Source of the DNA: Eubacteriales Family XIII. Incertae Sedis bacterium
GTDB taxonomy: Bacteria > Bacillota > Clostridia > Peptostreptococcales > Anaerovoracaceae
Direction of reading: 5' to 3'
NCBI GenBank assembly: GCA_031257175.1
Contig: JAIRPE010000116.1
Location: 1-33,542, forward strand
DNA length: 33,542 nt
Positions within the stretch are counted from its first letter, which is position 1, and each line of letters opens with the position of its first letter. This document shows, piece after piece, positions 8,592 to 33,336 of the stretch. Under the pieces are notes generated by a model, which worked only from the letters and a program-made list of their open reading frames with translations, did no database searches and was not told the origin of the DNA. Position numbers and translations under genes: made by a program.

Positions 8592-8797
8592 CCTTATTCC
8601 TCCCTCTTATTCACCTCAGTCAATGTAATTACTTAAGAATCCGCCAAAGCGAACAGCTCTTTGGCAGACAACAAGAACTCTCGATGAACCCGCCTCACGC
8701 GGGCTCACCGCCTAACGTCGGCCACGCCCCGATATCCGAGTCTCGAAGCGAAGCAGTCATCGCGGCTACATGTCAAAAAACTTGCGATAACAGTTAC

Positions 8798-8826
8798 ATT
8801 CTAGATAATTCGATAAAATATTGCAA
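8798..8826 (-). promoter_or_regulatory. Promoter of the GH2 gene
   Basis: On the minus strand: TTGCAA (8821-8826), a 17-bp spacer, TAGAAT (8798-8803). The -35 lies 5 bp from the proximal AAAGAAT half-site of the operator at 8832-8859. Predicted start near 8791, giving a leader of about 200 bases that contains hairpins at 8643-8665 (GCCAAAG/CTTTGGC) and 8689-8703 (CCCGC/GCGGG). Confidence 0.72.
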
Positions 8827-8831
8827 CCAGT

Positions 8832-8859
8832 ATTCTTTAGGGGATAGGGGGTGTTTTTT
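8832..8859 (-). promoter_or_regulatory. Predicted activator site upstream of the GH2 gene
   Basis: Read on the minus strand: a degenerate half-site AAAAAAC (8853-8859), then ACCCC, then a perfect AAAGAAT (8832-8838) exactly 21 bp further on. It matches the sites upstream of GH92, the ABC operon and the isomerase. The candidate binding protein is the YesN-like regulator at 19924-21549 (inference). Confidence 0.65.
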
Positions 8860-8889
8860 GGATGTTTGCCCATATTAAGATCAAGTCCC

Positions 8890-8916
8890 AAAGAATAGAC
8901 ACATTGGCAAAAGAAT
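8890..8916 (+). promoter_or_regulatory. Predicted activator site upstream of the GH92 gene
   Basis: AAAGAAT at 8890-8896 and again at 8910-8916 (20 bp apart, one less than the other copies), preceded by TCCC and followed after the first half by AGACAC. The second half-site is 5 bp from the -35 of the promoter at 8922-8950. This site and the GH2 site face away from each other in the same intergenic region. Confidence 0.65.
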
Positions 8917-8921
8917 CACCG

Positions 8922-8950
8922 TTGCGGCGCCGACCTACAAAATATAAACT
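8922..8950 (+). promoter_or_regulatory. Promoter of the GH92 gene
   Basis: TTGCGG (8922-8927), a 17-bp spacer, TAAACT (8945-8950). Both hexamers are weak, as expected for an activator-dependent promoter. The same -10 (TAAACT) and the same spacing occur in front of the ABC operon. Predicted start near 8957, leader about 157 bases. Confidence 0.7.
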
Positions 8951-8951
8951 T

Positions 8952-9050
8952 ATACTATCCCTTTTTAAATTCTGCCCAAAACTATTGGGCGGGCGTCGGA
9001 GGATAGTATCTGCTGATCCTCCCCAAAGCAACATTTTGAATGCGAATCAT
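8952..9050 (+). repeat. Imperfect repeat element, copy A, in the GH92 leader
   Basis: It begins at the predicted transcription start. It contains a TTTTTAAATTC tract, hairpin GCCCAA/TTGGGC (8974-8990), hairpin GGAGGAT/ATCCTCC (8998-9022) with an AGTATCT loop, and then GCAACATTTTGAATGCGAATC. A clearly related element (copy B, 17212-17315) lies in the ABC-operon leader but in the opposite orientation relative to its gene. ATACTATCC (8952-8960) could alternatively pair with GGATAGTAT (9001-9009), excluding the second hairpin. Function unknown. Confidence 0.6.
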
Positions 9051-9113
9051 TATTGGATTAATTCAAGGTTTGGGCGTTATCTCTTGCCCGATGATTGAAA
9101 CGGAGGTGCTGTC

Positions 9114-12100
9114 ATGAGCTCCAAGAAAAAAATCCCGCTTAGCCGAAAAAGTTTTACGGCCTTGGCATTAACGCTGGCCATGGTCTTTTCCGGCTTCACT
9201 TTCTCCGCGGCTGACGACGCCGAAAGCCCCGCCGCGGAGCTTAACTGGTCTTTTGAAACCTCCGAAGCTTTACCTGAGCTTCTGGAAAACGACGTGGCTG
9301 TTTCGGAAGGGATGGCTTCCCCTCTCACGACGATAAGATCCCCGGGGCCCTCGGCGACTGCGGATCCCATCTATGGCAACGGCAGCAGAAGCTGGAACGG
9401 CGTCAGGGCGCTGCGGATCAGAGGGACGCATCCGGCTTACGGCGGCGCTTCTTCCACGAACCTCATCTGCCGGGATCTGAACATCCCCGTGGGAACGGAT
9501 ACCCTGTTTTCCTACCTTATTCTTCCCGATTATTCATCGTACACCAGTTTTGACTGGGAATTCACCAGCCAATATATCGCGCTGGATCTGGAGTTTTCAG
9601 ACGGCAGCAGGCTCAGCGAGCTCGGGGGCACGGATCAGTACGGCCATTTTCTCACCGGGGCAGCCCAAGGCGGTAACAAGCACCTTTATTCTAAGCAATG
9701 GAACTTGGTGAAATGCGATCTCAGCAAGATAGCGGCCGGAAAAACAGTGAGCAAAATATTCGTCAACTACGACAAGCCCGACAACAGGTCCGGGAAAACT
9801 CTGAACATAGACGCCTATGTTGACTGCGTGAAAATAGGCTCGGCAGACATGTCGCCTAAAGCCACACCCGTAGAATACGCCAACATATTTGTGGGGAATA
9901 ACGACAAGGGGCTTTATTCCAGAGGCTTGCAGTGGCCGGCTGTCATGACTCCCAACGGCTTTAATTGCTGGTGCCCCTCAAACTACCCCGTGACCACATG
10001 GCTTGGCTCCAGCTATACCGGAAACAAAATATTCACTCCTTATCCCGACGCAGGCATAACCCATTTTACCGTGTCCCATCAGGCCAGCCTTTGGATAGGG
10101 GATTTCGGCACGTTCCAATTTATGCCAAATACTAGCCACGCGCCTTCCGCCGCCTCCATTCTGGCTCCCGCCGACAGAAGGGCGCTGTACGACAAGGACT
10201 CTATGACGGCAAACCCCGCCTATTTTTCCGTCACTTTTAACAGAGGCTCTTCCGCAAGCGGGGTGAGAACGGAGCTTAGCCCCACCGAGCACGCGGCCAT
10301 AGTCCGCATGAGCTTTCCTGAGGACAGCGCCTACGTGAACGTGCTATTCGACACGGTTTACGCCACTTCAGGCGGACGCATGACCCTTGCCGGGAACACG
10401 TTCACGGCAGTCACTGCCCACAACTCAAGCGAGGGCAGAACAGGCAACATGTATATCTACGGCGAGTTCGACAAAGCCCCCACGGCTTTGAGCAAAGCCT
10501 ACAGCCCCACGACCAACGCCAGGGCCGTCGTCAATTTCCCGAGCGGCACGGGGGAGGTGGTCATGAAGCTCGCGACCTCTTTCATAAGCGCGGAACAGGC
10601 CAAGAGAAATCTCGATCTTGAGATAGCCGGGGACGCCTCTTTCGATCAAGTGAAGCTCGCCGCCATGGAAACTTGGAATGACGTCATGAACGTCATACAG
10701 GTGGAGGGAGCTTCCGAGGAAGAGAAGGTGGAGCTGTACTCCAACGTCTACAGGCTATATGCCGATCCTCTCACCTTGTCGGAGAACACCGGGAACGCGG
10801 AAAACCCCGTGTGGACTTACGCCAGCCCATACGCGGGAAGCAACTCAACAACGAGAACCCCCAAGAGCGGCTACAAGCTCTATTACAACAACGGGTTTTG
10901 GGACACGTTCAGAGGCTCTTGGACGGCGTATCAGCTTCTTACTCCGGAATATTCCACCACCCTGCTCAACGGGCTGGCGCAGCACTATGTAGACTCTGAC
11001 TGGCTGGCCCGCTGGTTGGCTCCCGGAGGGAGGAACTCCATGGTAGGCACCAGCTCGGACATTATCTTCGGCGACGCGGCGGCAAAAGGCGTGGCCTTCG
11101 ATCTGGAGAAAGCCTACATGGCCAGCCTGAAAAACGCTTCCGCCTACGCGCCCTACGCCACCAGCGGCAGCACGAGCAACGCGGCCAGCTACACGGGAAG
11201 GGCCGGCATGGATCAGGCGCCGTTTTTAGGCTACACGGCAAACAGCACTGACGGAGGCAAGGGACTGTCATGGGCCCTCGACAACTATCTGAATGACTTA
11301 GGGGTGTCCGTCATGGCTGAGAAGCTGGGTAAAACCGATGAGGCCGTTTTCTTTAAGAACAAGGCCTTGAACTACGTGAACCTCTGGAACTACGCGGGCG
11401 GAGGCTGGTTCATCGGCAAGACCGCGGCGGGCGCCTGGTCTCAGCCCAACGGTCTCACCTACGCCGCCACAGGCGCCAACAGCGCCTACAACAGAAGCCC
11501 CAGCGACTATGAAGAGACCAACGGCTTCACTATGGCTTGGCACGCCCTGCAGGACGTGCAAGGCCTTATAAACCTGTACGGAGGAAAGGAAAAATTTACA
11601 GAGCGCCTGGACAGGTTCTTTAGCGACGAGACCCAGTTCAGCGGCGGCGGCAGGGACTACGTGCTGGATCATTACGACACCAAGATGGGGCAGTACGGCC
11701 AGGCGAACCAGCCGGATCACCACATACCCTACATGTACGCCTACGCGGGCCAGCCGTATAAGACCCAGGCGCTCACCAGGGAAATACTGGACAGAGTCTA
11801 CGTGGGCTATTCTTTCGATCAGGGCTTCCCCGGCGACGCGGACAACGGCCAGCAGGCCGGATGGTATATCATGACTATGCTGGGATTTTACCCCTTCAGC
11901 AACGGCGCGGACGGTTACGTCATCACCTCCCCCATGCATGACAAGACTACTCTAAACCTGCCCACAGGCCCCATAGAGATACTGGCCAACAACAACAGCC
12001 ATGACAATGTTTATATCCAGAGCATGACTGTAGACGGAGCGCCCTATGACAGCGTCTACATTTCCCGCTCCGATCTGCTGAAGGCGAAAAAGATCGTCTT

Positions 12101-13169
12101 CGAGATGGGGCCTTCCCCGTCGGACTGGGGCAAAGCCTCCGCCCCGCCTTCCATAACGTCTCGGGACGACACGGCCCCGCCCAATCCCTTGAAAGATTTC
12201 ACGACCCCCGGCGCGTCGATAAGCCCCTCTGTCCCTGAAAACACCCATGTCGGCCAGGCTGCTTACGCCACGGGGTTGAGCGCCGCCAACACGGCTCTTC
12301 TGTTCAATAACACTTCCTCGGCCAACGTCACGTTCCCTTCGGCCAAGGCTTCGGTCTGCTATTATTTCCCGGACGGGAAACAGGTGGAGCTGTACACCGT
12401 CACGTCTTCAAGCAATCTCGACGGTTCCGCCCCTTCCAGGCTGGAGCTTCTGGCTTCGGATGACGGGAGCGACTGGAAGTCTCTGGACAGGAGAGAGGAT
12501 GTGAGGTTCGACTGGGCGAGGCAAACGAAACCCTTCGCCCTTGCCAACGACAAAGCGTACAATTACTACAGGCTGGATTTGGAGGCTGCCTCCGGCGTTT
12601 CCGTGAGCGAGCTGGAATTCATGGGCTATCCGGTTAGCATCATAAAGGCGCCCGAAAAAATCACCGTCGGCGGCAAAGGGCGTTTTGACGTGACAGTAGA
12701 GAATTCTGTCAGTGGCCTCTGGTTCAGAGACAAGGATTTCAACAGGCTCACCGACGTGACGACATCCGTCCCCGTCCTTAACGCCGACGGCACAAAAACC
12801 ATCTCCGTAGAGATCGGCGCCGACGCGGGCGCGACTTACATGACCGCCCTGGACGGCAACGGTTATGAGATCGTCGCCTCCCGCAGGGAGCTGGCCGTCT
12901 CCGGGCTGGTGGTCATAAGGAACGGCGACAGCGCGGGTCTGAGGTTCACTAACGCTACAGGCAAGGATATGGACCTGAACCTGATCCTCGGCATTTATGA
13001 GCCTAACGGCGCGTTGGCGAAAGTGGAGAGCAAAACCCTGATCGTGGCCACAGGCGACGCGGAAGAACTCTTCTTGGACATTTCGGCCTACAAAGGCCAC
13101 AACCTTAAAGCTTTCGCCTGGGACAGCCGTTTCGCGCCTGTCTGCGGGGCAGTCTCTTTAGGGCTTTAG
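9114..13169 (+). CDS. Secreted GH92 alpha-mannosidase with C-terminal accessory domains
   Basis: A 1351-residue exported protein; signal peptide about 1-33. Residues about 45-245 form an extra beta-rich N-terminal domain. The GH92 catalytic unit follows at about 250-1000: VEYANIFVGNNDKG, YNNGFWDTFRGSW (591-603), YEETNGF with E801 as likely general acid, NQPDHHIPYMYAYAG (865-879), and GDADNGQQAGWY (907-918) whose D908 and D910 align with the family's catalytic-base aspartates. The family consists of calcium-dependent, inverting exo-alpha-mannosidases acting on mannans and high-mannose N-glycans. A discoidin-like domain lies at about 1040-1170, a linker domain at 1175-1262, and the shared module at about 1267-1346. 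The start follows CGGAGGTG. Linkage preference cannot be read from sequence. An activator site and weak promoter precede it, so it is probably inducible. Confidence 0.95.
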   Translation: MSSKKKIPLSRKSFTALALTLAMVFSGFTFSAADDAESPAAELNWSFETSEALPELLENDVAVSEGMASPLTTIRSPGPSATADPIYGNGSRSWNGVRALRIRGTHPAYGGASSTNLICRDLNIPVGTDTLFSYLILPDYSSYTSFDWEFTSQYIALDLEFSDGSRLSELGGTDQYGHFLTGAAQGGNKHLYSKQWNLVKCDLSKIAAGKTVSKIFVNYDKPDNRSGKTLNIDAYVDCVKIGSADMSPKATPVEYANIFVGNNDKGLYSRGLQWPAVMTPNGFNCWCPSNYPVTTWLGSSYTGNKIFTPYPDAGITHFTVSHQASLWIGDFGTFQFMPNTSHAPSAASILAPADRRALYDKDSMTANPAYFSVTFNRGSSASGVRTELSPTEHAAIVRMSFPEDSAYVNVLFDTVYATSGGRMTLAGNTFTAVTAHNSSEGRTGNMYIYGEFDKAPTALSKAYSPTTNARAVVNFPSGTGEVVMKLATSFISAEQAKRNLDLEIAGDASFDQVKLAAMETWNDVMNVIQVEGASEEEKVELYSNVYRLYADPLTLSENTGNAENPVWTYASPYAGSNSTTRTPKSGYKLYYNNGFWDTFRGSWTAYQLLTPEYSTTLLNGLAQHYVDSDWLARWLAPGGRNSMVGTSSDIIFGDAAAKGVAFDLEKAYMASLKNASAYAPYATSGSTSNAASYTGRAGMDQAPFLGYTANSTDGGKGLSWALDNYLNDLGVSVMAEKLGKTDEAVFFKNKALNYVNLWNYAGGGWFIGKTAAGAWSQPNGLTYAATGANSAYNRSPSDYEETNGFTMAWHALQDVQGLINLYGGKEKFTERLDRFFSDETQFSGGGRDYVLDHYDTKMGQYGQANQPDHHIPYMYAYAGQPYKTQALTREILDRVYVGYSFDQGFPGDADNGQQAGWYIMTMLGFYPFSNGADGYVITSPMHDKTTLNLPTGPIEILANNNSHDNVYIQSMTVDGAPYDSVYISRSDLLKAKKIVFEMGPSPSDWGKASAPPSITSRDDTAPPNPLKDFTTPGASISPSVPENTHVGQAAYATGLSAANTALLFNNTSSANVTFPSAKASVCYYFPDGKQVELYTVTSSSNLDGSAPSRLELLASDDGSDWKSLDRREDVRFDWARQTKPFALANDKAYNYYRLDLEAASGVSVSELEFMGYPVSIIKAPEKITVGGKGRFDVTVENSVSGLWFRDKDFNRLTDVTTSVPVLNADGTKTISVEIGADAGATYMTALDGNGYEIVASRRELAVSGLVVIRNGDSAGLRFTNATGKDMDLNLILGIYEPNGALAKVESKTLIVATGDAEELFLDISAYKGHNLKAFAWDSRFAPVCGAVSLGL

Positions 13170-13483: not shown

Positions 13484-14473
13484 TTAGGACTTCTTAAGCA
13501 CGGCGACGCCGGTGTCTATCACGGCCGGGCCCAAGCTATATCCCGAAAGGGCGCCGAAAGCCTGCGCCATTCCCAAGTAACCCATGGTATAGGGGTTCTG
13601 CGCCATGCTGGCCAAAAGGCTGCCGTCCTGGAGCAGACTGTTGATGGCGTCGGACTTGTCAAAGCCCACGCCGATGACATCCTTCCCGGACGCCTTGATG
13701 GCGTTGCCCGTGCCCACGGTGGAACCTTCGTTAGTGCCGAAGATGCCCACCAGGTCGCTGTTGCCCGATATGAAGCCCGCAGCGGCGTCTTGAGAGGCGG
13801 CCGCGTCGCCGTTCTTGTATTCGGTCGTCAGCAGGGTGTAGCCGCCGGCCTCGTCTATGGCGGCGCGGAAGCCGTTCTCACGGCTGATGGTGGAGTTGGT
13901 GGCGGTATTGACGCCTATGATCCCGATCTTGCCGCTGGTTTTCCCCGCCGCCTTCAGGGCATCCAGCATGGTGGTTCCCGCCAGCTTCCCGGCGTTATAG
14001 TTGTCAGTCGAGAGGGATTCCAGAGCGGGCTCGTCGGCGCCGGAGTCCACGTAGATGATCTGCACGCCCTTGCTCTTTGCGTTCTTGACGGCCTCGGACA
14101 CAGCCGTCGGGTCGTTGGCCGCGAGCAGGATCAGGTTCGACCCGTCAGCCACCGCGTTATTGATGCATTCGATCTGCTTCGCGTTGTCCTTCACGTCGGG
14201 GGCATCCCACTTGTAGTTGATGCCCAAGGCCCTGGCCATGTCGCCGGCGCCCTTGTCCACGCTCACCCAATGCTGATCCATCTTGTCCATGGTGATCAGG
14301 TACACGGTGTAATCCGCGCCCGCCAAAGGCGTGGCGGCAGGCGCCGCTTCGGACGAGGTCGTGGCCGCGCCCGTCCCGGCGTTATTGGCCGGCGGGGCGC
14401 TCTGTCCGCAACCTGTTATTACCGCGGACAGCAACGCCGCCGCCGCGACAACAGCAATAATCTTTTTCTTCAT
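13484..14473 (-). CDS. Sugar ABC transporter substrate-binding lipoprotein (RbsB-like)
   Basis: 329 residues. Signal peptide with lipobox VITGC (C22), so it is lipid-anchored on the outer face of the membrane. The mature protein is a periplasmic-binding-protein type 1 fold of the ribose/galactose/allose group (pfam Peripla_BP_4 type): YTVYLITMDKMDQHW, IILLAANDPTAVSEAV, GIIGVNTATNSTISRENGF, GIFGTNEGSTVGTGNAI and VGFDKSDAINSLLQDG are typical segments. Last gene of a three-gene operon in the order ATPase, permease, binding protein, as in rbsACB. The ribosome binding site AAGGAGGA is well placed. The ligand is not determined by sequence. From context a mannose-related sugar is likely (inference). 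Confidence 0.93.
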   Translation of the reverse strand: MKKKIIAVVAAAALLSAVITGCGQSAPPANNAGTGAATTSSEAAPAATPLAGADYTVYLITMDKMDQHWVSVDKGAGDMARALGINYKWDAPDVKDNAKQIECINNAVADGSNLILLAANDPTAVSEAVKNAKSKGVQIIYVDSGADEPALESLSTDNYNAGKLAGTTMLDALKAAGKTSGKIGIIGVNTATNSTISRENGFRAAIDEAGGYTLLTTEYKNGDAAASQDAAAGFISGNSDLVGIFGTNEGSTVGTGNAIKASGKDVIGVGFDKSDAINSLLQDGSLLASMAQNPYTMGYLGMAQAFGALSGYSLGPAVIDTGVAVLKKS

Positions 14474-14522: not shown

Positions 14523-15617
14523 TCAGCTGACGCCGTTCCCGTCGCCGTTCCCGTTGGGCGGCGTCTTGGACGTCTTTCTGTTAGTTCCGAATATCATGTC
14601 CCCTATGCCTATTTTGTTGCCTCTGGCTATTCTGTCTATCAAGACGGATATTATCACCACCACGCCTATCACTATGTTTCTCAGCGCCAGCGGAGCCCCG
14701 GCGAACTGCAGCCCGTTGTTGAGAACGCCCCAGATCGCCGCCCCTATGACAGTGCCGAACAGCAGCCCCTGGCCGCCCATGGTACTCACTCCGCCTATGA
14801 CGGAAGCGGCCACGGCGTTCAGCTCGTACATGTTGCCGGCATCCATAGTCCCCATGCCGCTCTGCGCCATGAGGATCAGGCCCACCACCGAGGAGAGAAA
14901 CGCGCTGGCCACGTACACCTTGGTCTCCGCCAACACGACGCGCACGCCGGAAAGCTTCGCCGCCTCATAGTTGCTGCCTATAGCGTATGTGTGCCTGCCC
15001 GTCCTCGTCTTGGACAAAAGGAACGCGAATATCAGGAACAGAATCAACGCTATCCACGTAGGGGCGAACAACCCGAGGAATTTGCCGTAGTAAAAGCATT
15101 GGCGAAACGCCTCGTAGGTGGGGTTGTTGGGATCGTCCAGCATGAGTATGCTGTCCGTGTTCCGCCCGTTGAGCTGCGCTATCCCCCTGGCTATGATCAT
15201 AGTCCCCAGGGTCGCTATGAAAGGCGGAAGTTTTGTTTTGGCGACCAGGAAACCATTAAGCGCGCCTATAAGCACGCAACTCAGCACAGTCAGCAACACC
15301 GCCGCGACGGGATGCATACGCCCCAAGGTGGTCATCAGCAAGGCGGACAACATGCAGCTCATCCCCGCCACGGAGCCTATGGACAGGTCTATCCCCGCAG
15401 TGATCAGCACGCACGACTGGCCTATGCCGATGATCAGTATAGGCGAGATCTGCCGCAAGAGGTTCATAACGTTCTCAGACGAAAAAAAGTTAGGATTTAT
15501 GATTCCGAACGCCGTGACCATTATGATAAGCGCCACCGTGACGGATATCACCTGCCCCATGCCCCTTATGGAAGTGAATTTTCTTATTGCCCCTAAGGTT
15601 CCCGCTGATTCATTCAT
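14523..15617 (-). CDS. Sugar ABC transporter permease (RbsC-like)
   Basis: 364 residues with about eight to ten hydrophobic segments, in the BPD_transp_2 family of ribose/xylose/galactose permeases. Family segments visible are LITAGIDLSIGSVAGMSC (about 71-88), FIATLGTMIIARG, RTGRHTYAIGSN and VIGGVSTMGGQG. A hydrophilic tail rich in Lys, Asn and Gly (from about 345) is unusual but probably unimportant. It lies 51 bases after the ATPase gene and 49 before the binding-protein gene. Ribosome binding site GTGGAG. Presumably a homodimer with the ATPase at 15669-17174 on its cytoplasmic face. Confidence 0.93.
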   Translation of the reverse strand: MNESAGTLGAIRKFTSIRGMGQVISVTVALIIMVTAFGIINPNFFSSENVMNLLRQISPILIIGIGQSCVLITAGIDLSIGSVAGMSCMLSALLMTTLGRMHPVAAVLLTVLSCVLIGALNGFLVAKTKLPPFIATLGTMIIARGIAQLNGRNTDSILMLDDPNNPTYEAFRQCFYYGKFLGLFAPTWIALILFLIFAFLLSKTRTGRHTYAIGSNYEAAKLSGVRVVLAETKVYVASAFLSSVVGLILMAQSGMGTMDAGNMYELNAVAASVIGGVSTMGGQGLLFGTVIGAAIWGVLNNGLQFAGAPLALRNIVIGVVVIISVLIDRIARGNKIGIGDMIFGTNRKTSKTPPNGNGDGNGVS

Positions 15618-17356: not shown

Positions 17357-17384
17357 ATTCTTTGGAGTATGGGGTGTATTCTTT
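17357..17384 (-). promoter_or_regulatory. Predicted activator site upstream of the ABC operon
   Basis: On the minus strand, TCC-AAAGAAT-ACACCCC followed by a second TCC-AAAGAAT exactly 21 bp further on (half-sites 17378-17384 and 17357-17363). This is the best-conserved copy of the motif. It lies between the degenerate ATPase gene and the ABC transporter. No intrinsic terminator is visible between those two units, so some readthrough is also possible. Confidence 0.7.
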
Positions 17385-17420
17385 GGATCTTTCGCGCTGA
17401 ATATCGATTTCGTGAAGATA

Positions 17421-18869
17421 TCATTCCGTCTCAGGCAGACGCGCCCGATACGCCTCGCTCAGCAGAGCCACCCTGTCGCCCAAGGCGTGAGCCTCATTTA
17501 TGCTGGAGGACACTATGATCACCGCGACGCCTTTATCGGCGATCTCCCTTATCATATCCGTCACCAGACGACGCAACGCCAAATCCAGCCCCGCGAAAGG
17601 CCGGACGCATATCAGAAGCTTGGGCGCGAAGAGATGCCATCTGTAGTAGAGAGTTTTGTACATCGTCACCGCATCCGCCTTTCTCAAGCTTTTCGCGAAA
17701 ATATTTTCTCCGAATTTTAGATAATATTCCTGTATAATGCTTTTATAGAACCTGCGGATGCCCATCATGCGCCCGCTGTATTTATTAATAGACATGAAGG
17801 CCAGATTTTCCAGCACGCTCCATCTCCTGAACACCGAAGTCTCCAGCGCCCCCTCCTGCATGAGGCCAATGCCCTCTTTAAAGAAATCCGTTTTTTGCGG
17901 CTTGAACGTCTCGCCTTTGAAATAGATCTCCCCGCTCGTGGGCGCGGCGGCGCCCGTCAGCAGATTAACTATGTCGTCCTCCGCCCTGCCTAAGGGATCC
18001 AAAAAGCTCACTATCTCCCCCCGTTTTACCATTATGGACAGCGCCTTGATCCTTCTCGACGTCACGCGCTCGAAACGGATTACCTCATCGCTGTCCCTAA
18101 CTCGGGCAAGAGGCTCATCCTCCGTGCCGACGGGCGCGTAGCCGCCTAGCAGCACCGTCATGATGCGATCCTTGTCGAAGGATTCCCTTCTGAACGTCCT
18201 CGCGTTCTTTCCGTCCCTCATGACCATTATCCTCTCAGCCGTACTCATGAGCAGATCTAAGTCGTTGTCTATGTAAACGACGGAATTGCCCGCATCCTTT
18301 ATGGCGCGTATTATTTCGTTGATTTGCTGTATTTCTCGAATATTCAGATAATTGGATGGCTCGTTGAGTATGATGAGTTTGCTGGATTTTCGCCTGATGG
18401 CGAACGCCTTCACCAACTCCACCATGCAGCGCTCCAACGGCTCCAGCTCGCAGGCGTCCTTCCCGGGATCGACGTCAAGCCCGAATCTTTTGAACAGCTC
18501 CTCTGTTTGGCGCAGTATGACCTTGTTTTTAATAAAATATTGCTTGCACTGGTCTCTTATGATAAAAATATTCTCCGCCACAGTGATGTTCCGGCAAAGC
18601 CTGTTTTTGCCGTCAACCACGAACACCCGGCCTGCGGCGGGCTGGACGTATCTGCCCCCTTCCACGGGCGCGTCGTAAAAATACAGCCGTCCGTTGTCTA
18701 TTCCGTCCTTTCCGTTCAGCACGTTCACAAGGCTCTCTTTTTCAGCCGCGCTCCACGAAAGAAGGCCCAATATCTCGCCTTTGAAGACGTTCATGCAGAA
18801 GCCGTCCAGCGCGTTTGCCCCGTCAACGGCTTTGTACACGTTATCCATCCTGAGTATTTCAGCTCTCAT
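17421..18869 (-). CDS. Degenerate tandem ABC ATPase-like protein, probably without ATPase activity
   Basis: 482 residues that align end to end with RbsA-type tandem ATPases. The first domain keeps the outline (ALDGFCMNVFKGEILGLL) but Walker A reads SWSAAEKES (38-46) with all glycines lost. The signature region is ELEPLERCMVELVKAF (141-156), Walker B is LIILNEPSNYL with Asp replaced by Asn (N169), and the switch His is lost (YIDNDLD). In the second domain Walker A reads LDPLGRAEDD, LSGG is replaced near LRKADAV (395-401), and Walker B is LLICVRPFAGLD (no DE pair). The frame is intact with normal codon use and a GAGGGA ribosome binding site, so it is a maintained gene rather than a decaying one. 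It is last in the operon isomerase-YesN-YesM-this gene, 18 bases after the kinase. A regulatory or adaptor role beside the kinase is inferred, not shown. Confidence 0.88.
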   Translation of the reverse strand: MRAEILRMDNVYKAVDGANALDGFCMNVFKGEILGLLSWSAAEKESLVNVLNGKDGIDNGRLYFYDAPVEGGRYVQPAAGRVFVVDGKNRLCRNITVAENIFIIRDQCKQYFIKNKVILRQTEELFKRFGLDVDPGKDACELEPLERCMVELVKAFAIRRKSSKLIILNEPSNYLNIREIQQINEIIRAIKDAGNSVVYIDNDLDLLMSTAERIMVMRDGKNARTFRRESFDKDRIMTVLLGGYAPVGTEDEPLARVRDSDEVIRFERVTSRRIKALSIMVKRGEIVSFLDPLGRAEDDIVNLLTGAAAPTSGEIYFKGETFKPQKTDFFKEGIGLMQEGALETSVFRRWSVLENLAFMSINKYSGRMMGIRRFYKSIIQEYYLKFGENIFAKSLRKADAVTMYKTLYYRWHLFAPKLLICVRPFAGLDLALRRLVTDMIREIADKGVAVIIVSSSINEAHALGDRVALLSEAYRARLPETE

Positions 18870-18887
18870 GTTCCCTCGCGAGGCCGT

Positions 18888-19922
18888 CTATTTTTTCAAT
18901 GGCAACGTTATCTCCACGTCCGTCCCCACGCCCAAGGCGCTGGAGATCCGCAACCCGTAATCGTCGCCGAAAATAAGTTTTATGCGATTATTCACGTTTA
19001 TGAGGCCTATGCCGGAGGACACCCTGCCAGGGCCTCCCGCCTCCGCGCCAGGCCCGTTCCCTTGCGCCTCTCCTTCCTCCGTCATGTCGGGAAACCTGGG
19101 GTTCATGGCGCCATTCAGGTAATTCAACGTATCCTCTCCTATTCCCACCCCATCGTCTATAACGTTGATGATCAGTCTGCTTTGGGTAGGCTCGATGATG
19201 ATGTCTATGCGTCCCGGCCCCAGCTTGCATTCGATGCCGTGGTATATGGCGTTTTCGATTATGGGCTGGAGCGTGAGCTTGGGGATGGCGCAGTCCAGCA
19301 CGTTGTCCTCGTTGCGCACCGCGTAGCTCAGCCGATCGCCGAATCGATAGCGCTGGATGAGGAAATAGTTTTCCACGTTGCCGAGCTCGTCCTCCAAAGT
19401 GACCAGCGCCTGCCCGCCCGACACGGAGTACCGGAAAAACGTGCCCAACGCCTCCGTCATCTCAGACACCGCGCTCATGCCCGAACTGAGCGCGTCCCCG
19501 CGTATGGCCTCCAGGGTGTTGTAGAGAAAATGCGGGTTTATCTGGCTTTGCAGCGCCAAATATTCCGCCTGGCGCTTGGACTCTTCTATTCTGTACTCTT
19601 TTTGGGAAATTATGCTGATCTTGTTGACAAACTCCGCCGCATCGCCTGTAAGGCCACGTCGCAGCTTTGCGAGCTCGCCCTCGTTGCGCACCTGCCCAAG
19701 TTTTTTCAACAGCAGTTTGGCCTTGCTTTCAGGCAACAGCACAGCCAGGAGATACAGCAACGTGATGACTGCCAAACCGGACACCGCAAGCAATATGCCG
19801 CAGAGACGCAACAAAGCCTCACTCTTTACCGACAGCATCAATGCGACGAACAGGATTGACTGCGCCACGCCGACGGACAAGAGCGCCGCTCCCTGACCAT
19901 TTTTCAAAAAGAAATCCTTCAT
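18888..19922 (-). CDS. YesM/LytS-type sensor histidine kinase lacking an external sensor domain
   Basis: 344 residues. Two predicted membrane helices, about 12-31 and 38-63, are joined by only about six residues, so there is essentially no extracytoplasmic domain. No HAMP domain is recognisable. A helical linker (65-120) leads to the His_kinase motif LQSQINPHFLYNTLEAI with phospho-acceptor H131, then the ATPase domain: LQPIIENAIYHGIE (N224), VIDDGVGIG (254-262) and GIGLINVNNRI (304-314). A Gly/Glu/Pro-rich insert (281-300) lies within the ATPase domain. YesM kinases usually have a large external sensor of about 250 residues, so this one must be triggered otherwise. It starts one base after the regulator gene ends, consistent with translational coupling. 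Confidence 0.93.
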   Translation of the reverse strand: MKDFFLKNGQGAALLSVGVAQSILFVALMLSVKSEALLRLCGILLAVSGLAVITLLYLLAVLLPESKAKLLLKKLGQVRNEGELAKLRRGLTGDAAEFVNKISIISQKEYRIEESKRQAEYLALQSQINPHFLYNTLEAIRGDALSSGMSAVSEMTEALGTFFRYSVSGGQALVTLEDELGNVENYFLIQRYRFGDRLSYAVRNEDNVLDCAIPKLTLQPIIENAIYHGIECKLGPGRIDIIIEPTQSRLIINVIDDGVGIGEDTLNYLNGAMNPRFPDMTEEGEAQGNGPGAEAGGPGRVSSGIGLINVNNRIKLIFGDDYGLRISSALGVGTDVEITLPLKK

Positions 19923-21604: not shown

Positions 21605-22282
21605 CTATTGCCGCGGGTATTCGTTGCACAGCAGCCTATAGGGCTCCTCATCCTCTTCGATGTTCGAAAAACGTCTCATTTCTTCGTAGAAACGGTTGTC
21701 CGTGTTGTCGTCGTTAGTCTGGCTGACCTCCCCTATCAACACCGGGCCTCCGCCCTCTTCAGCCCAAAACGCGTGGTATAAGCCGGGGCGAAGGGTAATG
21801 CTTTCCCCAGGGCGCAGCCTGACCTTGACTCCCGCAGGCGCGACGTAAGTCCTTCCGTCGCTGTTCACCGTCACGTCGGAGCTGTCCATCTCGCCTTCGG
21901 CCGTGGAATTGTGCAGCTCTATGACCAACGTGCCGCCACCCCTGTTGATAATGTCCTCCATTTTACTGAAATGGAAGTGCATAGTGCATACCTGGTTCTC
22001 ATTCGACAATATGAGTTTTTCCGCATACGTCTTGTCATATTTCGGGTTTTTGTAATTACCGTTGCGTATGGTCACAAGTGTCAGCCCGGCCTTCGCGAAA
22101 TCATCCAGGCCGTAGTCCGTCACGTCCCAACCCAGCATGTTGTCCCGAATCTCGTCGTATTCTTTCCCTTTGCTGCCCCATTCTTCCGGAGTCCAGGCGC
22201 AGAACGGCGGCAAAGCGAAGCCGTGCTTCGCGGCCATGCTTTCCATTTGCTTTATTGCTCTGTTTATCTCAGATCGTTTCAT
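21605..22282 (-). CDS. D-lyxose/D-mannose isomerase (cupin-type)
   Basis: 225 residues, cytoplasmic, cupin-fold D-lyxose ketol-isomerase family (EC 5.3.1.15). Members interconvert D-lyxose and D-xylulose, and many also D-mannose and D-fructose. The metal-binding set is visible: H102 and H104 in MHFHFSK, E109, and H170 in GLYHAFW. Other family segments are YAEKLILSNENQVCTMH and PGESITLRPGLYH. The frame is open 11 codons further upstream. I chose ATG 22280-22282 because AAGGAG lies 5-10 bases before it. It is the first gene of a probable operon with the YesN regulator, the kinase and the dead ATPase. With an alpha-mannosidase in the same predicted regulon, mannose-to-fructose conversion is the likelier role. 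Confidence 0.9.
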   Translation of the reverse strand: MKRSEINRAIKQMESMAAKHGFALPPFCAWTPEEWGSKGKEYDEIRDNMLGWDVTDYGLDDFAKAGLTLVTIRNGNYKNPKYDKTYAEKLILSNENQVCTMHFHFSKMEDIINRGGGTLVIELHNSTAEGEMDSSDVTVNSDGRTYVAPAGVKVRLRPGESITLRPGLYHAFWAEEGGGPVLIGEVSQTNDDNTDNRFYEEMRRFSNIEEDEEPYRLLCNEYPRQ

Positions 22283-22382
22283 GGCGAACTCCTTTTCCGA
22301 TTTACGCGCGGGCAAGCCCGATCAGGCAAGGCTGCGCACGATCAGGGGGAAGGGCAAACGCGCGTTGCATACTTATGTTAAT

Positions 22383-22501: not shown

Positions 22502-22529
22502 ATTCTTTGTTCCGGAGGGTGTATTCTTT
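22502..22529 (-). promoter_or_regulatory. Predicted activator site upstream of the isomerase-regulator operon
   Basis: On the minus strand, AAAGAAT-ACACCC (half-site 22523-22529) and a second AAAGAAT (22502-22508), exactly 21 bp apart. Both half-sites are perfect. No convincing -35 or -10 lies at the distance used at the other loci. The spacer region towards the gene carries a direct repeat of GGACGTGC. Confidence 0.6.
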
Positions 22530-22590
22530 TGAAAATTTTCATCCGCTCGCGTTCCGGCTCGACTATTAATCTATTTGTAGTTTTTTGTGC

Positions 22591-22687: not shown

Positions 22688-25600
22688 TTAGTTCTCCAGC
22701 TCCAAAGCGATGCCCGCCATGAGCGGCGCGAAGGTGACGGCATTCCACACGAAGGCTTTGGCAGTCACCGCGTCCGCGACGAGATCAGCCGTCACGGTCA
22801 GGGCGGCCGCGCCGCCCGCCGGCGCCGACGCCGTGCTTGCCTTCTGACCTATCAGCCTTCCTTGCGCGTCGTAGAACGCCAGAATCAAAGCCACTGTTTT
22901 AGAAGCCCCGGCGGCGTTCTCATAGCCGACGGAGGCAGTGACCGTGTCCGAAGTCTTCGTTATCTTCAACGCTTTGTTCCCAAGCACCACGATCTGTCTC
23001 TCTACGGCTTCGGAGGCGCGACCGTACTGATCGAACACCCTTACGCTCACTCCCACCGTCGTGTCAACAACAGCGGGGGTAACGCGCCCCTGGGCGTCTA
23101 TGACCGTCGGCTCGGTAGAGACGACCTCAACGCGGTAGCCGTGAGGCAAAGCGAACTCCAGATCGCCTTCCGTCGATTCCGGCAGGTTGGCACCCATGAC
23201 ACTCACCGCGTCGGCAAACGCCTTGTCCAAGGAAGCGGCCAGATAGCCGTCGGCCCATGTGGTGAACCCATCCAGAGGCTTGTACACGACGTATTCGCAA
23301 TAGGTCTGGATGACCGGGGCAGTAGCGCTGTTCGTTGCGGACAGCAACGCTATCTGCGGGTTGACCAGATGTATCTCAGGCGTTCCGGCAGACACGAAGT
23401 TGGCGTAGCTGCTCGGATTCGTGGCGAACCTGAAGTTATAACTGTCGCCGTTTTTGGTGACGATGTAGTAGACAGTCAGCGAGCCGTCGTTATCCACGGC
23501 GTTTACCGGCAGGGACGCGTATGTGGTGGACGCCGTGCCGGCGCGCTCCGTGGTCACATAGACCCGCGGCCCGTTGGCGTTGAAACGGGCGTCTATCTTA
23601 ACGAAGTTATCGCTGTCCTGATAGACGTAGAGTCCCATGTTCTGAGTAGCCACGCCCGGGGCCTCCGGGTAATAGACTTTCGCCAGTATCTCCCAGTCTC
23701 CGCCGCCCGGCCTGGCGAACAGATCCTGCCACGCGGTGTTAGTCCCGCTCATGTCATAGCGCTGGGTAGGCAGTCTCAGGCCTTTGCCCGGTTCGATCGA
23801 CCAGTTGCCGCCGGCGCTCGGGTTTATGATCGTCCATTTGCCGTCTTTCACGCCCGCTATGAAGGTATCCGACACGGGCAGCTCGTCAAACACCACATAA
23901 TAGTTGGTAGAAGCTATGGCGCTGCTCACGGTGACGGTGGCCATGCCGGGCAATGACTCCGCCTGCTTCACGCTCACCGCCAGCCCCTGCCCCGCGTCGG
24001 CCGTAGCCGCTATGACAGGGATCGCCGCGAAGTCTTTGGCGGCGTAGCTGAAGTCCGTCTTGGCGTTGCTGTCCGCCACGAAACCGCTGACCGCCTCTCC
24101 GTTGATGGTGAGGGTTTTCAGCGTGGGCGACGCCTGGGTGAGGTCGAACACGTTCAGGTACTCATAAGTAGCGGTGAACGGGGAAGCGTCCGCATCGCCG
24201 GTGTTGGCTAACAGCCCCACGTAAGGCAGGGCGTACTTGGCCGCGACAGGCAACGTAGTGGTTATCCTGGTCCACGTCACGTCATTCTGGGAGTAGGCGA
24301 AGCTGTATCCCCCGCCCACCTTCTGTATCTGCAGGTACAGTTCCCGCGCGTTGGCCAGGTTCGCCGTGTACGCCTGGGTTTCCGTGCCTCTGACCGCCTG
24401 GTACACGCGTATGACGTTGGTCGTCCCTGACGTGGGACGCTCGTAAACATATCTTATGTAGTTCTGATCGTCGTCCCACACTATCAGGCCCGCCTGCTGG
24501 TTGCTGGCGCCAGGCGTGGCTGACAACGTCAAATGCGTCTTGACCACCCAGTCGCCTCCCGCAGCCTGTTTGTAAACGTTCGCCGGCGGCGTGGCCGTGC
24601 CGTAGGCGCCTCTGCGGGCGGTGATGCTGAGGCCCGTGTCGTCATGTCTCACGTCATCGACGGCCTGGTTCTGCCATGTCCAGTCGCCGGCCCAAGCCTC
24701 GGTTTTGAAGTCGGCGCTCTTAGGTCTGTGCGCGAAGCCAATGCGATAGATCTGCTTGGAACCCGTCCGCGTGTCTACGGCCTCGATCTCCGTCACGCCC
24801 GGTATGGCCGCGGCCGGCCTGACGGCATAGGTGACGTCAGTATCGTCGGAGGGCACGTAGGTAACGACAGGCACGGCAGTGACGCCGTCCGGTATTTCGA
24901 TCGAGTAGTTCAGGTTCGAGGGGTCGTAGTCCGCTATGGGCGTCCCGCCGACAGCAATGGAGGCGGGGCCCGGGTCGGACAGAACCAGCACGACGAACTC
25001 GCCCTCGGCAGACGCGCCGTTATAAGTCACGGTGGCCGTTATGGTGGCGACGCCCGGATTCTTAGTCACGATCTTGCCTCCCTCGACAGCCGCCACTTCG
25101 GGACGGTTGCTGGAATAGGTCACTGTTCCGGGGATATCGGCCACCTTCACGATGCCCGCCTTGCTCATGTCGCTGTAGCCAGGCACGTTGTTGGCTATAA
25201 TATAGCCGTACATGGCCTCATTGTTCATAGACACCGCCGTATGCGGATCGACCTCCACGCCCTTGTTGTAGATCAGGCGCTCGGCTATGCCCTTGTCCGC
25301 ATCCCCGGTCTGGTTGGGCTTGAATGTGACGACCTGGGGCTTTTCAGTGATCTGGCCTCTGGTCACGCTGAAATTTTGGCTCAGAGCGATGTTATTGCAA
25401 GCAGCGCCGACCTGAAGCTGCCATGCGCCCTCGTCCACCACGTATTTATTCGCGGCAGTGTCGAAATAAGCCAGATCCTTCACGTCCGCCTTCAACGTGA
25501 CGCTCTTAGTCTCGCCTGGGTTCAGCTCTACCTTCTGGAAGCCCTTCAGACGCTTTATCGGCCGGTTCGGCAACGCCGTGCCCGGCTGCGCGAAGTACAG

Positions 25601-27892
25601 CTCCGCTACTTCCTTGCCCTTGACGTTCCCCGTGTTTTTGAGATCGAAAGTGACCTCGACGGTATCGTCGGCGGTGAAGCTCGTGCCGTTCACCCTCAAG
25701 TTGGAATATTCGAAGGTGGTGAAGCTCAGCCCGTAACCGAAGGGATAGGAAACGCCGCCGGGCTGGTACGTCCCGGAATAATACATGTACGTGCGTCCGG
25801 GGTGCCCTTCGCTTTCATACAGATCGTAGTCGTAGATGCCAGTGATGTCCGACGCCGGATCCGTGTTGTCCACGTTATTGTACCACAGCTGCTGGGTTTT
25901 TCCGGAAGGGTTCACCGCGCCGGTTATGATCTTGCCGAAGCCGACGCCCTTCTTTACTCCGCCAAAGCTGGACCACAGTATCGCCGCCACGTCCGGCTCA
26001 AAACTAGTGACCTGGACGGGACCGCAGGTCTCCAGTATTACTATGGTGTTGGGGTTGGCCTTGCCGACGGCGGAAGCGAGCTGCGCTTGGGCGCCCGGCA
26101 GTTTTATGGTGGCGCGGTCATTGCCCTCGCGGCTCGTCGCCTGTTCCGTGGCCAGCACCACGACGGCCAGATCCGCGGCCGCGGCCTTCGCCACGTCGTC
26201 CTGAGCTATGGTGGTGAGGCTGGCCAGCGCCGTCAGGGAATTGCTGAAGCCTCTATAATAGTCCACCTGCACGTTGTCGCCGTACTTGGCCTTCATGGCG
26301 GCGATGATGCCGCGCTCGATGGTCACGAAGTTAGAGTCGCTTTCACCCGTGACGAGCTGGGTGGAAGAGTACTGGCCGAGATAAGTCCCTGTGCGGGCCC
26401 ACTGCCCTATAACGGCGACCTTCAAGGGCCTGTCCGCCGTGGGGGAGGCTTTCACGGGCAGGATTTTATCCGCGGAACCGGCCGGGGCGGCGTTCTTCAG
26501 CATGACCACTGAATTCTCCGCCAAGTTCTCCGCCAAAGCCAACCGTTCCTGTGTCTGTCCGAACAGATTCTTAACGTAGCCGCCGTCCAGACCCGCCTCC
26601 ATGCGCGCCTTGCCCGCGGCCTGGTAGCCTATGACGCCGTCGAACTCACCCAACTGCATACGCGTGGTCATCAGGCGATGCACGGATATGTCGAACTGGT
26701 TCTCAGTGAAGACACCCTTGTCAGTCTTGACTCCGCCCAGCATGAGGGGGTAGTTCACCCAGTAGTTGCCCGAGCCGGACACGCTGACGCCCGAGTTGCA
26801 CTCCAGATCCTCGCCGTGGGCAAGGGCGCTGGCGTACTGCTCCGCCTTGGTGAGCAACTTGCCCGTGTGCGGGTTGACATAGCGATGGTTCGCTATGGTC
26901 TGCACAGAGTCGCAGTCGGAGGTGATAAACCCTCCGAACCCGAAAGTCTGACGCAGCAAGGTGTCCATAAAGTAGCTGCTCATGGACACAGGCAACCCGT
27001 TGACGGTGCTATAGGCGGTCATGACGGAACCCACGTTCGCGTTCTGGATGATGTCGCGGTAGGGCGCGGTGAAGTATTCGCGCATGGCGCGGTAATCCAC
27101 GTTGAAAGCGCCGCCTTCCACGCCGCCGTTAGCCGCGTTGGCCAACCCGCCGTTCAAGGGGCCCGTGCGGTTGTTCTCGCTGTTGTTGGCCGTATAGTGC
27201 TTTATAGTGGTTGACACTTTCTTGTATCCGTTCGGATCCAGCGTCTCGCCCGTGGCGTAATTTCTGCCTTCCATGCCGTTCACGAAGGCCGATCCCATGA
27301 CGCCCGTCAGATAGGGGTCTTCGCTGTAGGCTTCCTCATTACGCCCCCAGCGCGGGTCTCTCTGCAGGTTGACGTTGGGCGAATACATGTTCAAGTTTTT
27401 GCTGTTGTCCACAACACGCTCACGAATCTCATCTGAAATCTGCGTCGCTTCAGCATAGTACAGCGCCGGATCCCATGAGGACGCCATGGACGTGCTCTGG
27501 GGATAAGACGTGCTGTTGGGGACGCTGGTGCCGTAAGAGGGAGCGACGCCCATGCCTCCGGCAGTCTCGGGACTGGTGGCCGCGAAGCCGTGCAGCGCCT
27601 CATTCCACCACTGATACTTGGAGAGGCCTAACCTAGGTATGGCGGGGGACATGGAGCCAGTGCTTTGGGACGCTTTTTCGGCCACGGTCATCCTGGAAAC
27701 CAGGTCTGCCGCGCGTTCCGCAAACGAATACTGCCCTGACGCGTCTTTGTAGATAGGCGTCTCAAGCGGAGCCGTCCTGGTAACGACGGCGTCTCCCGCC
27801 TCGATGCCCGCCGGGGCGGCCACGCTCACGGACAAGCTGCCAAAAACCATGGCAGCCGACGTGAAGATCGCGAGTAATTTTTTCCCTTTCAT
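22688..27892 (-). CDS. Secreted modular glycoside hydrolase family 3 enzyme (beta-xylosidase/glucosidase-like)
   Basis: 1734 residues, exported (signal peptide about 1-26). GH3 N-terminal barrel at about 55-420 with WWNEALHG (95-102), NVNLQRDPRWGRNEEAYSED (173-192) and the nucleophile motif ITSDCDSV (D326). GH3 C-terminal domain at about 455-725, with E589 in SREGNDR as candidate acid/base. Fibronectin-III-like domain at 725-835. A Big_2-like bacterial Ig domain at about 915-970. Two concanavalin-like beta-sandwich modules at about 1058-1248 and 1338-1537, separated by a short beta domain. A further Ig-like domain at 1560-1635 and the shared module at about 1648-1725. The SDCDSV motif and the plant-type WWNEALHG favour beta-xylosidase or alpha-arabinofuranosidase activity over glucosidase. 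Usual GH3 length is 700-900 residues, so half this protein is accessory. It lacks the AAAGAAT site and has its own promoter, so it is probably regulated separately. Confidence 0.93.
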   Translation of the reverse strand: MKGKKLLAIFTSAAMVFGSLSVSVAAPAGIEAGDAVVTRTAPLETPIYKDASGQYSFAERAADLVSRMTVAEKASQSTGSMSPAIPRLGLSKYQWWNEALHGFAATSPETAGGMGVAPSYGTSVPNSTSYPQSTSMASSWDPALYYAEATQISDEIRERVVDNSKNLNMYSPNVNLQRDPRWGRNEEAYSEDPYLTGVMGSAFVNGMEGRNYATGETLDPNGYKKVSTTIKHYTANNSENNRTGPLNGGLANAANGGVEGGAFNVDYRAMREYFTAPYRDIIQNANVGSVMTAYSTVNGLPVSMSSYFMDTLLRQTFGFGGFITSDCDSVQTIANHRYVNPHTGKLLTKAEQYASALAHGEDLECNSGVSVSGSGNYWVNYPLMLGGVKTDKGVFTENQFDISVHRLMTTRMQLGEFDGVIGYQAAGKARMEAGLDGGYVKNLFGQTQERLALAENLAENSVVMLKNAAPAGSADKILPVKASPTADRPLKVAVIGQWARTGTYLGQYSSTQLVTGESDSNFVTIERGIIAAMKAKYGDNVQVDYYRGFSNSLTALASLTTIAQDDVAKAAAADLAVVVLATEQATSREGNDRATIKLPGAQAQLASAVGKANPNTIVILETCGPVQVTSFEPDVAAILWSSFGGVKKGVGFGKIITGAVNPSGKTQQLWYNNVDNTDPASDITGIYDYDLYESEGHPGRTYMYYSGTYQPGGVSYPFGYGLSFTTFEYSNLRVNGTSFTADDTVEVTFDLKNTGNVKGKEVAELYFAQPGTALPNRPIKRLKGFQKVELNPGETKSVTLKADVKDLAYFDTAANKYVVDEGAWQLQVGAACNNIALSQNFSVTRGQITEKPQVVTFKPNQTGDADKGIAERLIYNKGVEVDPHTAVSMNNEAMYGYIIANNVPGYSDMSKAGIVKVADIPGTVTYSSNRPEVAAVEGGKIVTKNPGVATITATVTYNGASAEGEFVVLVLSDPGPASIAVGGTPIADYDPSNLNYSIEIPDGVTAVPVVTYVPSDDTDVTYAVRPAAAIPGVTEIEAVDTRTGSKQIYRIGFAHRPKSADFKTEAWAGDWTWQNQAVDDVRHDDTGLSITARRGAYGTATPPANVYKQAAGGDWVVKTHLTLSATPGASNQQAGLIVWDDDQNYIRYVYERPTSGTTNVIRVYQAVRGTETQAYTANLANARELYLQIQKVGGGYSFAYSQNDVTWTRITTTLPVAAKYALPYVGLLANTGDADASPFTATYEYLNVFDLTQASPTLKTLTINGEAVSGFVADSNAKTDFSYAAKDFAAIPVIAATADAGQGLAVSVKQAESLPGMATVTVSSAIASTNYYVVFDELPVSDTFIAGVKDGKWTIINPSAGGNWSIEPGKGLRLPTQRYDMSGTNTAWQDLFARPGGGDWEILAKVYYPEAPGVATQNMGLYVYQDSDNFVKIDARFNANGPRVYVTTERAGTASTTYASLPVNAVDNDGSLTVYYIVTKNGDSYNFRFATNPSSYANFVSAGTPEIHLVNPQIALLSATNSATAPVIQTYCEYVVYKPLDGFTTWADGYLAASLDKAFADAVSVMGANLPESTEGDLEFALPHGYRVEVVSTEPTVIDAQGRVTPAVVDTTVGVSVRVFDQYGRASEAVERQIVVLGNKALKITKTSDTVTASVGYENAAGASKTVALILAFYDAQGRLIGQKASTASAPAGGAAALTVTADLVADAVTAKAFVWNAVTFAPLMAGIALELEN

Positions 27893-33187: not shown

Positions 33188-33336
33188 AAAATTACCTCCT
33201 GAAATTTTTTGACATTCGGTTCGGGGCCTGATACGCATCCTCAGTCCGGGTCGGCGGCGAAGCGGCCATCGCCCCGCCTCCGAAGGGTTTCGAGGCAATA
33301 TGTTACATTAATTACATACCCTCACCCCAAAACAAT

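Follow-up and report, generated by a model that had tools for sequence, protein, structure and literature searches.

A tandem RbsA-type ABC ATPase with degenerate catalytic motifs is very probably a dedicated part of a histidine kinase module in the window, the whole 33,542-nucleotide stretch of DNA from an Eubacteriales Family XIII. Incertae Sedis bacterium that was analyzed here. The association of this dead ATPase with the kinase is strongly supported. Unlike that association, its docking and signaling role is something that we infer: it is rather likely that the pseudo-ATPase serves as input subunit to a YesM-type kinase that has no sensor, docking on the permease RbsC and reporting the state of the sugar and its binding protein (SBP).

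Organization of the locus

The genes of the system lie on the minus strand in the order LyxI, response regulator (RR), histidine kinase (HK), dead ATPase, live RbsA, RbsC, and SBP (Table 1). The gap between the kinase and the dead ATPase is 18 bp, and that between the dead ATPase and the live RbsA is 246 bp. The preliminary description of this DNA had reported an intact frame for the dead ATPase 18 bases after the kinase, the same gene order, and a neighboring RbsA that keeps all its motifs; the coordinates were confirmed and the RbsA motifs are all in place. Large GH2, GH92, and GH3 proteins are encoded on both sides of the system (window 3981-13169 and 22688-27892), which suggests a locus for the utilization of mannose-rich glycans. 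Two more large proteins, of 593 and 926 aa, are encoded at 28383-30164 and 30518-33298. Pfam searches of these two gave a weak Pectate_lyase_5-like adhesive domain in one and no match in the other.

Table 1. Features of the sensor kinase and sugar transporter locus in the window.
Feature	Coordinates	Strand	Basis or remark
Third box, 3 mismatches	8832..8861	-	upstream of GH2 gene 3981-8591; region shared with divergent GH92 gene 9114-13169
Sugar-binding lipoprotein (SBP), Peripla_BP_4	13484..14473	-	Pfam
RbsC-type permease, 364 aa, PF02653 BPD_transp_2	14523..15617	-	proposed docking partner, common to live and dead ATPases
Live RbsA-type ATPase, 501 aa	15669..17174	-	retains every motif; belongs to the partner clade confined to type-1 operons
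Direct repeat CCAAAGAAT-N12-CCAAAGAAT, 21 bp apart	17357..17386	-	precedes live RbsA; candidate box for the response regulator
Dead tandem RbsA-type ABC ATPase, 482 aa; proposed kinase input subunit	17421..18869	-	degenerate motifs, monophyletic family, selection, AF2 fold
YesM/LytS-type histidine kinase, 344 aa	18888..19922	-	PF06580 and HATPase_c; two membrane helices, no sensor domain
YesN-like response regulator, receiver and AraC-type HTH, 541 aa	19924..21549	-	Pfam; conserved first gene of the RR-HK-dead cistron
D-lyxose/D-mannose isomerase (LyxI)	21605..22315	-	PF07385 and NF051472; first gene of the regulatory operon
Second box, 2 mismatches	22502..22531	-	upstream of the LyxI-RR-HK-dead operon

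A conserved family of dead RbsA paralogues

Motif losses were read from an alignment of the dead ATPase to the live RbsA next to it. In NBD1, the Walker A sequence is SWSAAEKES where the live protein has GENGAGKST, the Q-loop Gln is absent, the signature is LEPLERC compared to LPVSSQQ, Walker B is LNEPS compared to MDEPT, and the H-loop is IDND compared to ISHR. In NBD2, DPLGRAEDD stands in place of the Walker A sequence GLMGAGRTE, ADAVTMYK in place of the signature LSGGNQQK, and CVRPFAG in place of the Walker B sequence IFDEPTRG. The original statement that the motif residues are lost in both halves is correct as far as function goes, but it does not hold for the Walker A Lys or for the Glu-Pro after the NBD1 Walker B, both of which the window protein retains. 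The Walker A Lys is present in 74% of the 31 orthologues described below. At many loci, live RbsA proteins themselves mostly have GAGRTE, which contains no Lys, as the NBD2 Walker A; judged by sequence, one site is non-canonical even in active RbsA transporters.

The dead ATPase is a single chain with two NBDs whose residues 5-472 align to the YtfR/RbsA models, giving homology over the full length. Its NCBIfam scores are 174 bits for YtfR (cut-off 850) and 172 bits for AraG (cut-off 689), and it falls far under every curated CUT2 family cut-off. The AF2 model (pLDDT 82.7) has the tandem-NBD transport fold and is nearest to DppD/OppD with a TM score of 0.67-0.72.

A staged search of about 1,630 genomes (family, 350 genomes; order sample, 394; class sample, 391; phylum sample, 348) identified 31 orthologues of the 482-residue protein in 13 family-level groups across the phylum. 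The family contributed 6, the order sample 10 more, the class sample 12 more, and the phylum sample another 3. Intact motifs occur in 0/31, and a functional Walker A/B, signature, and H-loop are missing from all of them. These proteins are monophyletic with 100/99 support in a tree that contains 19 of them and with a FastTree support of 1.0 when all 31 are included. A scan of the genome contigs with the lone window protein matched only ordinary RbsA proteins and unrelated ATPases.

The dN/dS ratios between close pairs of dead ATPases are 0.04-0.18, the same range as for the neighboring kinase and live RbsA. Where live RbsA is invariant, the dead family retains the residue 23% of the time at catalytic sites and 55% of the time at non-catalytic sites (p = 8e-5). 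Some of the former catalytic sites have become fixed for a different residue, T425F in 100% and G287D in 97% of the family. The AEN segments that follow each Q-loop face the permease in ABC importers, and the Asn of both segments is kept in 31/31 dead ATPases in a permease-facing comparison that covers very few positions (3 groove columns). As judged from these ratios and replacements, the dead ATPase is under purifying selection and is a protein with a new job rather than a ruin. Shared motif losses in 31 orthologues with such ratios lie far outside what chance would give.

A sensor-less kinase tied to the dead ATPase

The window kinase contains PF06580 (1.6e-24) and HATPase_c and nothing else; HisKA was not matched, and the catalytic residues are conserved. 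The PF06580 kinase and the AraC-type response regulator form a YesM/YesN pairing. Hydropathy places two helices at about residues 12-30 and 43-61, between which some 6-12 residues form a loop, in keeping with the two helices and the external loop of about six residues first proposed. The large extracytoplasmic sensor domain that YesM-type kinases usually carry is absent; the sensor-bearing ones examined in related genomes have loops of 154-274 aa. The interhelix loop is short or undetected by hydropathy in all 30 kinases of the family. AF2 modeling of a read-through of the kinase and the dead ATPase (TAG read as Gln, 833 aa) gave two folded proteins, whose proximity is forced by the seven-residue junction and is not taken as evidence for a complex. 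The model draws kinase residues 11-77 as one helix with middling pLDDT, and the helix hairpin therefore rests on hydropathy.

The dead ATPase gene lies directly after a short kinase and response regulator in 30/31 orthologues. The exception is genome G858, in which the dead gene follows ileS (L224:4115-5569) and an RR-HK-RbsA-RbsC-SBP operon is on another contig (L292). Distance matrices from the 20 complete operons of the window's type (type 1, below) gave partial tree correlations of 0.57 for the dead ATPase and kinase, 0.58 for the kinase and response regulator, and 0.58 for RbsC and SBP. The values were 0.04 for the dead ATPase and RbsA and a weak 0.17 for the dead ATPase and RbsC. By this measure, the dead ATPase evolves with the kinase and not with the live RbsA.

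A kinase profile was used to search 14 genomes, and 18/18 sensor-less YesM-type kinases are followed by an RbsA paralogue. Fourteen of them are dead-linked, and the other four (L139, L142, L288, and L289) are additional short kinases. Among the other YesM-type kinases examined in these genomes, the extracytoplasmic loop measures 154-274 aa, or else the protein has a longer frame or a soluble N-terminal domain and no such ATPase is encoded behind it; the remaining kinases were judged by frame length only. Thus, the lack of a sensor and an RbsA-paralogue neighbor go together in the 14-genome sample. The adjacency in 30/31, the partial correlation of 0.57, and the 18/18 kinases uphold the earlier proposal that the dead ATPase belongs with the short kinase, and the co-occurrence of its orthologues with short YesM kinases came out as predicted. 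A gene that follows a kinase in an operon can be related to it in other ways.

Probable intermediate stages of decay

Two of the additional short kinases are followed by RbsA paralogues with Walker A/B intact in both halves (class B; L139:7736-10366 and L142:8592-11350). These paralogues have Gln for the H-loop His, DETT for DEPT, and have lost the first signature, and the pairs stand ahead of an SBP-RbsC-live RbsA set. The NBD2 Walker A of class B is GSGKS, unlike the GAGRTE of live RbsA. The other two kinases precede paralogues that have the first Walker A only (class C; L288:4985-7001 and L289:3313-5677), and the L289 pair is divergent from a complete SBP-RbsA-RbsC transporter. The proposition that all kinase-linked ATPases are dead is ruled out by class B, which keeps Walker A/B. 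The preliminary description had held that homologues with catalytic residues in the same gene order would speak against it; the distant class B relatives bear this out only in part, as they keep Walker A/B in this position without the H-loop His or the first signature, and the dead clade itself contains no intact protein.

The kinase-linked ATPases split from all live RbsA proteins at 98/95 support, a split that is likely but not certain because the branches are long. FastTree joins the RbsA-linked kinases in one clade at 0.98, but an IQ-TREE quick run on the kinase core breaks it with two changes, and a single clade of all RbsA-linked kinases is only partly supported. Classes B and C would be graded intermediates, and the dead family would belong, as a single branch, to a broader collection of paired RbsA paralogues and kinases that have decayed to different degrees. 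The system offers a testable case of an ATPase turned signaling subunit, and classes B and C would preserve the route.

Two operon types and the RbsC permease

The dead ATPase operons fall into two types. Type 1 (23 cases including the window) consists of RR-HK-dead, a gap of 61-661 bp, and then a live RbsA of a specific clade, RbsC, and SBP. Type 2, with five cases that all come from the family of the window, consists of RR-HK-dead-RbsC with overlapping genes and has no RbsA or SBP of that clade; in the four cases with enough contig, an unrelated SBP-RbsA-RbsC set lies alongside. The remaining three of the 31 are a module alone (L198), a contig that ends (L227), and the orphan gene (L224). 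The L198 module (L198:7034-11213) is RR-HK-dead with neither RbsA nor RbsC adjoining, and a weak CCAAAGAAT-type box (19.7 bits) is found at the end of the dead gene.

The type-2 RbsC is nested inside the type-1 RbsC clade, the same clade as the window RbsC. An RbsA of the partner clade was not found in four type-2 genomes, where the best match was 488 bits compared to about 640 or more in type 1, and the fifth (G235, 58% complete) had no match at that threshold; the loss is not certain because the genomes are incomplete drafts (58-90%). The four genomes carry 10-23 other RbsA paralogues. The ratio of the RbsC rate to the kinase rate is 0.91 in type 2 (minimum 0.76) compared to 0.48 in type 1 (maximum 0.74), and the type-2 RbsC thus keeps pace with the kinase, yet it preserves 23/24 of the residues conserved across RbsC proteins. 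Membership in a kinase operon, apparent loss of the cognate motor, and faster evolution with the fold kept are the traits expected of a permease turned receptor. RbsC, the permease next door that was first named as a possible partner, is the likeliest membrane partner of the dead ATPase because in type 2 the dead ATPase gene is directly followed, with an overlap, by that of an RbsC from the window clade.

The putative regulon and its probable sugar

The 21-bp spacing of the direct repeat is usual for AraC-type sites. The repeat is recognizable between the dead ATPase and RbsA genes in 23/23 type-1 operons, with scores that are flattering because the matrix was trained on those same sequences. 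The window check is independent of the training and gave three box sites compared to 0.04 expected. The whole 2.04-Mb genome contains five box matches, 3 of them in the window, and the reversed control gave two. A fourth genomic box lies on another contig (G000:C79:15525-15554; L301/L305), about 185 bp upstream of the gene for a second GH92 protein of at least 1597 aa. Near the type-2 modules, no conserved box scored above 12.3 bits. ROK kinases, phosphomannose isomerase, or PfkB are encoded in relatives. The sugar sensed is probably mannose or one closely related to it, as judged from the D-mannose isomerase, the GH92 alpha-mannosidases, and the sugar genes of the relatives.

Proposed mechanism and alternatives

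In the mechanism that we propose, the dead ATPase would dock on the RbsC dimer at the place of the live RbsA, where it could not drive transport. A sugar-loaded SBP would engage RbsC and change the shape of the permease, and the dead ATPase would relay this change to the kinase beside it in the membrane. The kinase would phosphorylate the YesN-like regulator, which would then bind the CCAAAGAAT repeats and raise expression of the transporter, LyxI, and the glycosidases. A single type-1 permease would take part in either of two complexes, acting as importer when paired with RbsA and as receptor when paired with the dead ATPase; the type-2 permease would have become a component of the receptor. 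We put even chances on the fuller idea of a sugar ABC importer turned receptor, in which a dead motor replaces the live one on RbsC, SBP/sugar occupancy is passed to the kinase, and the type-2 permease no longer transports. The preliminary description suggested sugar transport itself as the signal, a version that is not supported. A dead motor could report turnover only if live RbsA were also cycling on its permease, and the cognate live ATPase seems to be missing from type 2. Occupancy of RbsC by loaded SBP is a simpler signal than flux and is favored on these grounds. The weak dead-RbsC correlation speaks against docking, and the other RbsA paralogues of type-2 genomes might energize the permease.

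The dead ATPase may instead bind the kinase in the cytoplasm, where it would sense an internal ligand (a nucleotide or sugar phosphate) or act as a scaffold with the permease uninvolved. We regard this as unlikely. Its evolution in type 1 is tied to the kinase and hardly to RbsC, the type-1 gene is co-cistronic only with the HK and RR genes, the Walker A Lys is kept in 74% of members, and L198 is an RR-HK-dead module with no RbsC adjoining, all as cytoplasmic sensing would have it. The type-2 cistron adds RbsC of the cognate clade and drops the live RbsA and SBP, and the permease-facing Asn is invariant, which argue for a permease partner. Improbable is a post-translational throttle on uptake, in which the dead ATPase competes with live RbsA for RbsC and has no role in signaling. 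Type 1 does have two ATPases for one RbsC, and RbsA-type folds are expected to dock on RbsC; however, the dead ATPase is linked to the kinase and not to the transporter (partial r of 0.57 compared to 0.04), its gene is encoded before the transporter's own box, and it is retained in type 2, in which the search gave no cognate live RbsA.

We consider very improbable a heteromeric importer that carries dead and live RbsA on one permease with a kinase that senses flux as in Bce modules. Bce modules are proposed to sense flux (PMC10314905), and a live RbsA is next door in 23/31; against this, a single RbsA already carries both NBDs, the dead-RbsA partial r is 0.04, and type 2 yielded no cognate live RbsA. 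A decaying pseudogene or sequencing artefact, to which the breakage of all catalytic motifs could point, is ruled out by 31 intact frames, dN/dS ratios of 0.04-0.18, and new invariant residues, and its probability is negligible. For the proposed receptor, type-2 systems, seemingly without a live motor, are a natural test of occupancy versus flux sensing.

Comparison with known systems

Many bacterial kinases lack a sensor domain; for the YesM group, the family described here suggests that an ABC importer whose motor is dead may have been reused as the sensor. Transporter-derived receptors have precedents. In UhpC-UhpB, a transporter paralogue is the receptor for a histidine kinase. The transporter DctA acts as a co-sensor for the histidine kinase DcuS (PMC5703999). 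The window system would resemble both in having a transporter-derived co-sensor, but those are secondary transporters rather than ABC transporters and have no pseudo-ATPase. In XylFII-LytS and CuaDSR, a two-component system and an extra transporter-derived protein control expression of a sugar importer (PMC10384115), an arrangement that the window system would share. The extra protein of these systems is an extracellular SBP that touches a large extracytoplasmic sensor domain, with CuaS helices at 30-49 and 316-339 (PMC10384115), whereas window-type kinases have no large extracytoplasmic domain.

In Bce-type modules (BceAB-BceRS and VirAB-VirRS), an ABC transporter does the sensing for a kinase that lacks a sensor domain and whose two helices are joined by 3-11 residues, and the module controls its own transporter (PMC3023708, PMC10314905, PMC7828314). 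The window kinase likewise has two helices and no extracytoplasmic sensor domain. The Bce transporter confers antibiotic resistance, its ATPase is live, and its 10-helix permease carries an extracytoplasmic loop of about 200 aa; the window system, in contrast, has a CUT2 sugar importer, a PF06580 YesM/LytS-type kinase, an AraC-type regulator, and a dead ATPase. The window permease is RbsC-like (PF02653, 364 aa) and lacks the Bce permease trait. BceS-type kinases lie outside the His_kinase PF06580 family. The window system is thus not a Bce member, because its permease type and kinase family differ from those that define the group, although it would work alike in principle.

To our knowledge, a pseudo-ABC-ATPase has not been described as a histidine kinase input subunit, and a search of the open-access literature, whose silence is weak evidence of novelty, gave neither such a case nor any report in which an RbsA paralogue is paired with a kinase. 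The dead ATPase shares full-length tandem-NBD homology with the CUT2 ATPases RbsA, MglA, XylG, and AraG; unlike them, it has lost the motifs and is encoded with a kinase rather than a transporter. Some proteins annotated as sugar ABC transporter ATP-binding proteins beside kinases are thus likely not to be transport ATPases.
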